A stretch of 64,000 bases of DNA from Nostoc sp. NIES-3756 (GTDB taxonomy: Bacteria > Cyanobacteriota > Cyanobacteriia > Cyanobacteriales > Nostocaceae), in contig NZ_AP017295.1 in the NCBI RefSeq assembly GCF_001548375.1, positions 6,338,001-6,402,000 on the forward strand, in the 5' to 3' direction. Shown piece by piece: positions 27,963-31,762 of this stretch; position 1 is the stretch's first letter, and every line of letters begins with the position of its first letter. The position numbers and the translations under genes were made by a program. The notes beneath the pieces were generated by a model that saw only the letters and a list, made by a program, of their open reading frames with translations, made no database searches and was not told the origin of the DNA.

Positions 27963-29093
27963 ATGAGTTACTGTCTTAACCCCCGTTGTCCAAAACCAGA
28001 AAACCCCCATGATGTTAGGTTTTGCCTGAGTTGCGGTTCAAAGTTGCACCTCAAAGAACGCTACCGCGCCGTCAAACCAATTGGACAAGGTGGTTTTGGG
28101 AGAACTTTTTTGGCTGTAGATGAGGATAAACCTTCTAAACCTCGTTGTGTAATTAAGCAATTTTATCCTCAAGCCCAAGGTACTAATACAGTCCAAAAGG
28201 CAGTGGAGTTATTTAACCAAGAAGCCGTGCAGCTTGATGAATTGGGTAAACATCCACAGATACCCGAACTTCTAGCCTATTTTACCCAAGACGATCGCCA
28301 ATATTTGGTACAAGAATTTATCGATGGGTTAAATTTAGCCCAAGAACTAGCCCATCAAGGTGCTTTCAGTGAAACACAGATTCGGCAGTTACTCCATGAT
28401 TTATTGCCTGTACTGCAATTTTGTCATACCAGACAAGTAATTCATCGAGATATTAAGCCAGAAAATATTATTTTACGTAGTAGCGATAATAAATTAGTTT
28501 TAGTAGATTTTGGTGCTTCCAAATCTGCCACTGGCACAGCTTTGAGTCACACTGGTACAAGCATCGGTACACCTGAATATGTTGCTCCAGAACAGATGAG
28601 AGGTAGAGCGTTGTTTGCTAGTGATATTTATAGTTTAGGGGCAACTTGTATTAATTTACTAACTGGGCGATCGCCTTTCGATTCTTACGACACTAACAAC
28701 GATACTTGGATTTGGCAGCAATATGTAACCACGCCAGTTAGTCATAATTTACAGCAGGTACTCAACAAAATGTTAGAAAGTATTCCTGCTAGACGCTATC
28801 AAACAGTAGATGATGTTCTCAAAGACTTAAATCAACATTCTCCTGCACCAAATCCACCAGCCAAGGTAAATCATCCATCGCCACCACCAACTCCGCTAAC
28901 ACCTGTGGCAAAAACCCAGAGTCAGATAGATTTAGAGTTAGAGGAATTAAAAACTCAATTTTTGGTTGGGGGAAAACCAAAACAGCAAAACATACAACCA
29001 CAGCCTACAACTAATATCCCAGCCAAGAAAAGTGAAATTGATAAAGAGTTAGAAGAATTAAAAGCTAAATACCTTGGTAATAATAACGTATAA
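27963..29093 (+). CDS. Ser/Thr protein kinase with N-terminal zinc ribbon
   Basis: A eukaryotic-type protein kinase of 376 residues. The N-terminus has a zinc-ribbon-like set of cysteines (C4, C9, C21, C24). The kinase domain follows: GQGGFG loop at 41-46, lysine in CVIKQF at 65, HRDIKPEN at 161-168, DFG at 182-184, and GTPEYVAPEQMRG. The tail is proline-rich and ends with two copies of a motif SxIDxELEELKxxxL (residues 320-334 and 357-371). No membrane span is seen. Its stop is only 5 bp before the DarT-macrodomain gene, so the two are almost certainly co-transcribed. The target is unknown; the neighbour is a natural candidate. Confidence 0.92.
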   Translation: MSYCLNPRCPKPENPHDVRFCLSCGSKLHLKERYRAVKPIGQGGFGRTFLAVDEDKPSKPRCVIKQFYPQAQGTNTVQKAVELFNQEAVQLDELGKHPQIPELLAYFTQDDRQYLVQEFIDGLNLAQELAHQGAFSETQIRQLLHDLLPVLQFCHTRQVIHRDIKPENIILRSSDNKLVLVDFGASKSATGTALSHTGTSIGTPEYVAPEQMRGRALFASDIYSLGATCINLLTGRSPFDSYDTNNDTWIWQQYVTTPVSHNLQQVLNKMLESIPARRYQTVDDVLKDLNQHSPAPNPPAKVNHPSPPPTPLTPVAKTQSQIDLELEELKTQFLVGGKPKQQNIQPQPTTNIPAKKSEIDKELEELKAKYLGNNNV

Positions 29094-29098
29094 ACTCA

Positions 29099-30265
29099 AT
29101 GACAAAATCAGATATTAAAAGTCTCTACTACATCACACACATTGAAAATTTATCTTCGATACTACAAAGAGGAATTTTATCCCACAAAAAAGTTGAAGAA
29201 TTAACAGTTTCATACACACCAATTTACGACAGTAGCATTGTCAGTAAACGGAAAGATAAAGCTACACCTGCAAGGAGTAGTTTATGGGAGTATGCTAATT
29301 TATACTTCCAGCCGCGTAACCCCATGATGTATCGGGTAGTTCATGAAAAAGACAGAAGGGATATTGCAGTTATTGGAGTTAAACCGGATGTGTTAACAGC
29401 AGCAGGCGGACTAATTACAGATGGAAATGCTGCCAATGATCCAACGCAATTCTTTCCTATTAAAGAAGGTGTAGAACTACTCAAGAAACAATGGAAAATT
29501 ATTCAAAATGAATGGTGGAATGAGCTTGATGGTTCAAAACGCAAAATCATGGCTGAATGCTTAGTGCCAGAAATGATTAACCCAGAGCTAATTCATTCTA
29601 TTTTTGTAGCAGATTATAAAGCTAAAGAGCAGGTAGAAAAACTTATAGGTTCAGCTAGAGTACCAGTGATGCCTGAACCCAATATGTTCTTTCAACCCAT
29701 ATCTGCTGCCAAGATTGGCAATAATATTTCCTTAATCGATGGGGATATGTTCTTTTCCAAGATGCAAACTTTAACAATTAGTGTCAATCTTCAAGGCGTA
29801 ATGGGTAAAGGATTAGCATCACGGGCAAAATATCAGTTTCCTGATGTATATGTAGTTTATCAAGATGCTTGCCGAAATAAACAACTTACTGCGATAAAAC
29901 CCTATCTTTATAAACGCGAGGCTTCCTTAGACCAAGAACTAGCTGATTTAAGTTTCCCTCTTGTAAGTTCCAATGCTGTAAAGTGGTTTTTGTTATTTGC
30001 TACGAAAAGACAATGGCGAGAAAATTCCCGTTTAGATGACATTGAAGGCGGTTTAGACTGGGTAAGGAAAAATTATCATGAACTTGGTATTCAATCCTTA
30101 GCAATGCCAGCTTTGGGTTGCGGTTTAGGTAACTTAAATTGGTCTGAAGTTGGGCCAGTTATGTGTCGTTACTTACATAATATAGGAATTCCAATTGCTA
30201 TCTATCTTCCTAGAGAGAATCAAATTGAGCCTCAATATTTAACTGCTGATTATCTACTAAATTAA
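29099..30265 (+). CDS. DarT-type DNA ADP-ribosyltransferase fused to a DarG-type macrodomain
   Basis: A 388-residue two-domain protein. Residues 1-200 match DarT (DUF4433): H14 and N17 in HIENLSSIL, the NAD-site segment YFQPRNPMMY (69-78), and the presumed catalytic E153 in KIMAECLVPE. Residues 208-388 match the DarG macrodomain: SLIDGDMF, SVNLQGVMGKGLASRAKYQF (229-248), FATKRQW with K303, and PALGCGLGNLNW (337-348). DarT adds ADP-ribose to DNA and DarG removes it. Normally these are two proteins. Here they are one chain, and the DarG C-terminal DarT-binding part is absent because the protein ends after the macrodomain. It follows the Ser/Thr kinase by 5 bp. Domain calls are by motif; activity is not shown. 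Confidence 0.85.
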   Translation: MTKSDIKSLYYITHIENLSSILQRGILSHKKVEELTVSYTPIYDSSIVSKRKDKATPARSSLWEYANLYFQPRNPMMYRVVHEKDRRDIAVIGVKPDVLTAAGGLITDGNAANDPTQFFPIKEGVELLKKQWKIIQNEWWNELDGSKRKIMAECLVPEMINPELIHSIFVADYKAKEQVEKLIGSARVPVMPEPNMFFQPISAAKIGNNISLIDGDMFFSKMQTLTISVNLQGVMGKGLASRAKYQFPDVYVVYQDACRNKQLTAIKPYLYKREASLDQELADLSFPLVSSNAVKWFLLFATKRQWRENSRLDDIEGGLDWVRKNYHELGIQSLAMPALGCGLGNLNWSEVGPVMCRYLHNIGIPIAIYLPRENQIEPQYLTADYLLN

Positions 30266-30331: not shown

Positions 30332-31762
30332 TTACTTTTTAGCTTCAGTGATGGGAACCCATTCCGTGTGGAAGCTACCAGGTTTGTCGGTACGCAGGTA
30401 GGTGTGTGCGCCGAAGTAGTCGCGTTGTGCCTGAGTGAGGTTTTGGGGTAGGCGATCACGGCGGTAGCTGTCAAAATAATCTAAGGAGGCGCTAAACGCA
30501 GGTACAGGAATGCCGAGTTTGGCAGCTGTAATAATTACTTCCCGCCAAGCTGCTTGTCTGTCGAGAATTGTTTGTTTAAATTCAGGAGCAAGTAGCAAGT
30601 TAGGTAAAGCGGGATTTTCGTTAAATGCCTTCTTAATCTTATTCAAGAAGCCAGCGCGAATAATACAGCCACCTTTCCAAATTCGCGCTAATTCACTCAG
30701 ATTCAAATTCCAATTAAATGTGGTTGAAGCTGTGGATAACAGCGCCATACCTTGAGCGTAAGAACAAATCTTAGAGCAGTAAAGTGCATCCCGGACTTTG
30801 TTGATAAACTCTTTGGTAGAGCCATCATACTTGCCACTGGGGCCTGTTAGCTGCTTAGATGCGGCTATCCGCTCATCTCGAATTGAAGAGATAATCCGAG
30901 CATTTACGGCTGCGGTAATGGTGGGAATAGAAACGCCCAATTCCAAAGCAGTTTGTACAGTCCAACGTCCAGTACCCTTTTGACCTGCTGCGTCAACAAT
31001 CAAGTCTACCAAGGGTTGCTTTGTATCTGGGTCTACATAGGGGAAGATATTCGCTGTAATCTCAATCAAGAAAGAATTGAGTTCGTCGGTAGTATTCCAT
31101 TCAGCAAATACTTCATGTAGCTCTTTTGCACTTAGCCCACCAGCATTTCTGAGCAAGTCGTAGGCTTCAGCAATCAACTGCATATCGCCATACTCAATGC
31201 CGTTGTGTACCATCTTCACGTAGTGACCGGAACCACCAGGGCCAACGTAGGTAACACAAGGGCCGTCATCGACTTGAGCAGCAATTTTGTTGAAAATTGG
31301 TGACAGATACTCGTAAGAACTTTGTGTACCGCCAGGCATCAGTGAAGGGCCGTTGAGAGCGCCTTCTTCACCACCACTGACACCCATACCCAGGAAGCGT
31401 AAGCCTGCGGGTTCTAGTTCTTGAGTCCGTCTTTGGGTATCTTCAAACCAAGAGTTGCCACCGTCGATGATGATATCGCCTTCATCTAGCAGGGGTTTTA
31501 GCTGTTGGATAACTGCATCCACTGGTTTACCAGCTTGCACCATCACTAGAATTTTGCGGGGACGTTCTAGTGCGGCGACAAACTCTTCCAGGGTGAAAGC
31601 AGCTTTAACGTTGCGTCCACCAGCACGCTGTGCCATGAAGGCATCGGTTTTTTCTCTGGAACGATTATAGACTGCAATTGGGAAGCCATTACGCTCTACG
31701 TTTAGAGCGATATTCTCGCCCATAACGGCTAAACCAATCACACCAAAGCTTTGTAGTGTCAT
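30332..31762 (-). CDS. gnd: 6-phosphogluconate dehydrogenase (decarboxylating)
   Basis: Oxidises 6-phosphogluconate to ribulose 5-phosphate, CO2 and NADPH in the oxidative pentose phosphate pathway, important in dark metabolism and heterocysts. It is 476 residues. The NADP-binding start is FGVIGLAVMGENIALNVERNG, followed by NRS and the substrate segment GMGVSGGEEGALNGPSLMPGG (residues 127-147). The catalytic lysine lies in GHYVKMVHNGIEYGDMQ, and the tail holds RDYFGAHTYLRTD. Complete and normal in length. Confidence 0.97.
   Translation of the reverse strand: MTLQSFGVIGLAVMGENIALNVERNGFPIAVYNRSREKTDAFMAQRAGGRNVKAAFTLEEFVAALERPRKILVMVQAGKPVDAVIQQLKPLLDEGDIIIDGGNSWFEDTQRRTQELEPAGLRFLGMGVSGGEEGALNGPSLMPGGTQSSYEYLSPIFNKIAAQVDDGPCVTYVGPGGSGHYVKMVHNGIEYGDMQLIAEAYDLLRNAGGLSAKELHEVFAEWNTTDELNSFLIEITANIFPYVDPDTKQPLVDLIVDAAGQKGTGRWTVQTALELGVSIPTITAAVNARIISSIRDERIAASKQLTGPSGKYDGSTKEFINKVRDALYCSKICSYAQGMALLSTASTTFNWNLNLSELARIWKGGCIIRAGFLNKIKKAFNENPALPNLLLAPEFKQTILDRQAAWREVIITAAKLGIPVPAFSASLDYFDSYRRDRLPQNLTQAQRDYFGAHTYLRTDKPGSFHTEWVPITEAKK

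Follow-up and report, generated by a model that had tools for sequence, protein, structure and literature searches.

A one-chain DarTG protein in the cyanobacterium Nostoc sp. NIES-3756: probable exchange of a predicted single-gene DNA ADP-ribosylation writer and eraser

Results

The locus

The window analysed here, a stretch of 64,000 nucleotides from Nostoc sp. NIES-3756 (contig NZ_AP017295.1, positions 6,338,001 to 6,402,000), carries a gene in which an ADP-ribosyltransferase domain of the DarT type and a macrodomain of the DarG type are encoded by one open frame, with no separate toxin and antitoxin genes. On the evidence of its sequence the product, here called the fusion, is a natural one-chain DarTG of the macrodomain class, resembling DarTG2. 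The gene stands between that of a Ser/Thr protein kinase and a 6-phosphogluconate dehydrogenase gene, which we take from its sequence to be gnd (Table 1). The coordinates given in a preliminary description of this DNA are exact for both the kinase and the fusion, which lie on the same strand 5 base pairs (bp) apart, and its assignment of a DarT-like N-terminal half and a DarG-like macrodomain C-terminal half is confirmed by Pfam, NCBIfam and PADLOC profiles.

Table 1. Positions in the window of the fusion, its domains and the adjoining features
Feature	Position	Strand	Remarks
Single-chain DarTG, 388 residues	29099..30265	+	DarT half ~residues 1-200, macrodomain half ~208-388; whole-length match to 7omu
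DarT (ADP-ribosyltransferase) domain, residues 10-198	29126..29692	+	E153 in 82/82, R51 in 81/82 fused sequences
DarG-type macrodomain, residues 210-377	29726..30229	+	N230, K237, K303, W306 = TaqDarG N22, K29, K80, W83
Extra macrodomain residues 280-294 (15 residues)	29936..29980	+	Gap opposite in three split cyanobacterial DarGs
4-Cys prefix Ser/Thr protein kinase, 376 residues	27963..29093	+	Older resident gene, judged outside the unit
Terminator-like stem-loop	30272..30297	.	Scan called - strand; may serve both convergent genes; also at empty sites L043, L044
gnd-like 6-phosphogluconate dehydrogenase gene	30332..31762	-	Right border of the slot

Domain structure and catalytic residues

Pfam recognizes DarT (PF14487, residues 10-198, E 1.3e-50) and Macro (PF01661, residues 301-354, E 4.2e-5) in the fusion, the PADLOC profiles match it with E values of 2.9e-42 for DarG and 4.3e-42 for DarT, and the NCBIfam DarT model does so at 5.2e-31. 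The NCBIfam DarG model aligns to residues 210-377 (E 5.5e-37) by only positions 1-154 of its 338, which leaves the second half of DarG without a counterpart; when three split DarGs are aligned with the fusion, their C-terminal, DarT-binding half is likewise absent from it. The earlier claim that writer and eraser share one polypeptide lacking the part of DarG that binds DarT is thus borne out by both profiles and alignment. The C-terminal half is a macrodomain, and no NADAR family is among the Pfam or NCBIfam matches of the fusion. Elsewhere in the genome no second fusion or separate DarG was found, there being no further match to the fusion at E 0.001.

The closest known structure is that of the Thermosipho africanus DarTG (PDB 7omu), which fusion residues 7-387 match with an E value of 7.8e-131 (1.4e-180 by profile). 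A structure model of the fusion built from 70 sequences (an earlier model from 18 had a predicted local distance difference test score of 74) superposes on 7omu at 1.5 A over 375 residues. The extra macrodomain residues 280-294 are present in the aligned fused relatives and in 7omu. Beside them R273 and E274 are invariant in 70/70 aligned sequences.

The catalytic residues can be followed through both halves. E153, N230, K303 and W306 are invariant in all 82 fused sequences, and K237 is Lys in 77 of them and Arg in the other five. E153 shares its column with the conserved Glu of four split DarTs (from Synechocystis, Tolypothrix and Leptolyngbya plasmids and from our locus L016), so that the catalytic glutamate, on which the preliminary description had staked its reading of the DarT half, is present. 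The residue aligned to E153 in the Thermus DarT chain 7omv is Ala, which we take to be the TaqDarT E160A mutant made for crystals. The macrodomain residues fall on the TaqDarG positions of Table 1, and H82 is also in place (TaqDarG numbering was derived by hand, with an offset of 10 from chain positions); E153 and K303, the two residues proposed at the outset as catalytic, thus align with DarT and DarG respectively. Passages in PMC5179494 describe TaqDarG K80A as inactive, N22A and K29E as impaired, and H82A and W83A as having little effect; they also describe TaqDarT E160A as non-toxic and the DarG macrodomain alone as saving cells from DarT.

The ratio of nonsynonymous to synonymous substitution rates (dN/dS) is 0.03-0.07 in each half in three comparisons by the YN00 method, one of the six values having a saturated dS. 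For the comparisons with genome G005 and locus L058 there are NG86 values only, and G005 has too few changes to judge. By these ratios both halves are under purifying selection.

Distribution and exchange

Among bacterial and archaeal genomes 157 relatives were confirmed, and the analysis went on with the best 80. The fusion is in one open frame at 79 of these 80 loci, the remaining one (L098) having an internal stop, which indicates that the unit is not a chance joining. In a tree of 82 rows (the 79 loci without L098, the window, G005 and G046) the fused relatives span 11 named phylum-level groups, with 18 changes of group where the least possible number is 10. Closer to the window the gene is patchy, being found in 3 of 13 genomes of the genus (E limit 1e-100) and in 10 of 192 of the family.

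There is no match of at least 60% identity in 50,697 phage or 72,556 plasmid records, two collections uneven in host range. Below 60% there are matches in 211 phage and 77 plasmid records; of the best 20 of each, those that are long have ~26-31% identity. Carriage of the fused form by plasmids or phages was considered and rejected: the long plasmid matches among those best 20 each cover two annotated genes, and the best phage match (H1) consists of two frames of 211 and 342 residues. Since no match reaches 60% identity and the long ones listed are split over two genes or frames, the fused DarTG looks mainly chromosomal in the records compared.

A few loci depart from the single intact copy. 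In genome G032 (L038 9750-10232; L009) we find only part of the DarT half (~residues 20-185) and no macrodomain half, next to genes that resemble the neighbours of the whole fusion at L065; it looks like a decayed copy. A 205-residue DarT-like frame lies directly upstream of the fusion at L099 (677-1294), and two partial ones at L097 (3334-4403), possibly as duplicates.

The window was also compared with relatives in DNA identity. Against G005, the DNA identity of the fusion is 99.3% in the DarT part and 98.9% in the macrodomain part, while the other 15 segments are at 89.8-97.1%, for which the simplest reading would be an exchange of the fusion alone. Against G012, gnd is at 90.6%, the fusion at 81-85% and the kinase at 82% or less, a pattern that fits a separate or older acquisition of the fusion. 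Against G048 the fusion (84-85%), kinase body (81%) and gnd (81%) are all alike and carry no signal of exchange. We regard horizontal exchange of the fusion gene as well supported.

Candidate neighbours of the fusion were sought as well. A conserved neighbour outside the Nostocaceae was rejected, the neighbour clusters tracking lineage (mostly loci of Poribacteria and Chloroflexota). In four related loci (L101, L106, L111 and L114, three of them checked by Pfam) a gene for an Eco57I-type DNA methylase adjoins the fusion, which at L101 is also beside a second methylase-like frame. On the Synechocystis plasmid pSYSG (L132) a two-gene DarTG lies beside a restriction specificity subunit, a nucleotidyltransferase and a zeta-type toxin.

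The kinase gene

The kinase carries a 4-Cys prefix domain at residues 3-28 (46.4 bits against an NCBIfam cut-off of 24), which makes its earlier label of zinc-ribbon kinase a fair one. The preliminary description had made it part of the unit, as the possible setter of the balance between writing and erasing, and this part of the proposal is not supported by the distribution of the two genes. Of the 192 family genomes 176 hold a close relative of the kinase, against 10 with the fusion; the kinase is in 13/13 genus genomes (E limit 1e-140), against 3/13, all 10 genomes without the fusion keeping it. The order kinase, fusion, gnd occurs in six of the 10 fusion-bearing family genomes, and the other four have no kinase within 1.5 kilobases of the fusion. 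Among the 80 fused loci (a set that overlaps with the family genomes) a kinase-like frame (E 1e-8) is found in the flanks of only seven, all Nostocaceae; the fetched flanks of the other 73 have none, with the reservation that seven of these have fewer than 1200 bases upstream, where presence of the kinase cannot be judged. Nor is there a frame matching the kinase at five further loci (L034-L038). The adjacency is not confined to a single genome, which the preliminary description had named as a refutation, but in the tree all nine fusions that adjoin a kinase fall on one branch (support 100/98).

Presence and absence together with synteny thus lead us to reject the kinase as a functional partner; judged from its distribution it is probably only a neighbour, older than the fusion. 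The PADLOC PD-T4-6 models match it over its whole length with an E value of 2.1e-176. Two control cyanobacterial kinases also match them (1.1e-89 and 7.3e-92), so these models are broad, even though the kinase of the window fits better, and the match, being probably non-specific, was set aside as a defence call.

Gene order and transcription

We compared what follows the kinase at 32 loci, 13 from the genus and 19 more from the 30 best of the family search. The next gene downstream is the fusion at four, gnd within 400 bp at 13, and a HicAB-like pair at three, with some other or no clear gene at 12. In the six family genomes where the two adjoin, the fusion always has gnd on its other side. 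Pfam confirmed HicA and HicB at L042, and the pairs at L047 and L048 were judged by similar sequence; the occurrence of such a pair in the kinase-gnd gap of three genus relatives suggests a small exchange site for toxin-antitoxin genes.

The empty sites show where the fusion came to lie. At L044 a stem-loop of the kind that follows the fusion begins 14 bases past the kinase stop, and L043 has one further on; the stem-loop trails the kinase at empty sites and the fusion in the window, and so the fusion fills the interval from the kinase stop to the stem-loop. In six of seven Nostocaceae loci the fusion overlaps the kinase stop by 4 bases, in place of the gap seen in the window. This placement ahead of the stem-loop makes a single transcript of kinase and fusion likely. 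A scan for a promoter of the fusion's own was uninformative, with three promoter-like matches against a mean of 8.3 in shuffles.

Discussion

The fold, the catalytic residues, the fusion and the insertion slot are established by sequence or model. From them we infer, with fair though not full confidence, that the gene is a self-contained and horizontally exchanged writer and eraser, whose activity would be a self-limited, reversible ADP-ribosylation of thymidine, probably in defence. By the chemistry of the DarTG2 family, as given in passages of PMC5179494 and PMC11543638, the N-terminal half would spend NAD+ to place ADP-ribose on thymidine of single-stranded DNA, and the tethered macrodomain would take it off by way of K303. 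Because writer and eraser are always present at 1:1, net modification would be near zero in uninfected cells, and marks would accumulate only if writing outpaced erasing, for instance in a burst of single-stranded phage DNA or with a blocked eraser. The same fixed ratio excludes addiction by faster decay of the antitoxin, and reversible modification in place of classical addiction follows logically as the predicted consequence of a 1:1 fusion. The gene would be cargo that came in between gnd and a kinase gene older than itself, its probable co-transcription with the kinase being a result of that position. A defensive role is the most likely one: the slot is shared with HicAB, some relatives have methylase or restriction genes next to them, and passages of PMC8883491 report that DarTG acts against phages.

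Several observations weigh against this reading. The defence context is weak. By eye the window's own neighbours do not look like a defence island. Of 130 neighbouring frames listed for the fused loci, 10 were scanned, picked as restriction- or phage-like, and eight of them matched such families; many of the others look by eye like ordinary chromosomal genes. The fusion misses the NCBIfam equivalog cut-offs, with 108 against 150 bits for DarT and 127.8 against 250 bits for DarG. The signal of exchange appears against G005 only, the fusion not standing out in that way against G048 or G012, and gene conversion would also explain the pattern of identity with G005. Changes of phylum in the tree do not prove transfer, and many of its rows are metagenome bins that may contain stray contigs. 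Finally, the lack of close matches in phage and plasmid records is unlike a typical mobile addiction module.

It is possible, though we consider it less likely than the exchanged writer and eraser, that the fusion works as an infection sensor of the CapRel type, the macrodomain being both sensor and antitoxin in cis and a phage product that blocks it freeing the DarT half. Passages in PMC10865869 describe fused toxin-antitoxins such as fused HicAB, EzeT and CapRel-SJ46, the last of which acts as an infection sensor, and the ~15 extra macrodomain residues of the fused family would be in keeping with such a role. The eraser, however, looks catalytic, with K303 and N230 invariant, so that inhibition need not be steric; there is no known trigger, and the defence context is weak. 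We think it unlikely that the gene is instead a domesticated chromosomal regulator, marking the cell's own single-stranded DNA reversibly at a low level in replication control or repair. Purifying selection on both halves and the lack of phage or plasmid matches would agree with such a role, but the patchy occurrence in genus and family, the slot shared with HicAB and the spread across phyla look like dispensable cargo.

Less likely still is a unit gated by the upstream kinase, which would phosphorylate the fusion and shift the balance of writing and erasing on a signal. The shared strand, the close spacing or overlap and the likely common transcript would allow some regulation by the kinase, but in the genus every genome that has no fusion keeps the kinase, in the family the kinase is far commoner than the fusion, and most of the 80 fused loci show no kinase-like frame nearby. 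An inactive or degenerate fusion is highly improbable in view of the invariant catalytic residues and the low dN/dS, the internal stop at L098 and the partial copy in G032 notwithstanding.

If the writer and eraser do serve in phage defence, they would show DarTG working with no separate antitoxin. The story of a kinase-controlled DNA ADP-ribosylation is dropped as unsupported, and a testable, exchangeable single-gene writer and eraser takes its place. Relatives have the fusion, a HicAB pair or neither in the kinase-gnd gap, which offers a natural experiment on a small scale, and it would be worth testing how a fused DarTG is controlled without the C-terminal half of DarG and what residues 280-294 do. 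As a speculation that we hold to be rather doubtful, fused DarTG may be a branch of DNA ADP-ribosylation, spread widely over at least 11 phylum-level groups and carried mostly on chromosomes, that abandoned addiction by two genes in favour of a mark limited by its tethered eraser; the protein might then detect abnormal single-stranded DNA above a threshold, or sense infection by being freed when its macrodomain is blocked, with residues 280-294 replacing the control exerted by the lost half of DarG.

Relation to known systems

In passages of PMC9411070, PMC5179494, PMC8883491, PMC9503650, PMC11543638 and PMC10865869 a fused DarTG is not described, and a search of PMC9967889 for fusion-related terms found none. 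A search by title and abstract opening found no paper on a fused DarTG; the primary paper of 7omu was outside that search, and we do not claim absence from print. Fused HicAB, CapRel-SJ46 and EzeT resemble the fusion in having toxin and antitoxin in one chain and differ from it in their chemistry; to our knowledge none of them uses a macrodomain eraser. DarTG1, which consists of DarT1 plus NADAR, differs in its eraser, which is a NADAR domain according to a passage of PMC11543638, where that of the fusion is a macrodomain. The two-gene DarTG2 systems of Thermus and Mycobacterium tuberculosis (5m3e, 7omv, 7yk3) have folds and catalytic residues in common with the fusion but comprise two proteins, the DarG of which has the C-terminal half that the fusion lacks. 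Relative to the split DarGs, the fusion has residues 280-294 in addition and carries Ile where the VNTVN motif of DarG has its first Asn. Closest of all is the DarTG of Thermosipho africanus, an organism different from the cyanobacterium of the window, in which DarT and macrodomain likewise form one chain at ~50% identity (48-53%) to the fusion, with the two domains placed relative to each other as in our model. The preliminary description had set the one-chain arrangement against the usual two proteins, but the arrangement is not new: 7omu, released on 2021-06-23, is the same one-chain protein, and one-chain DarTG is already known from it.
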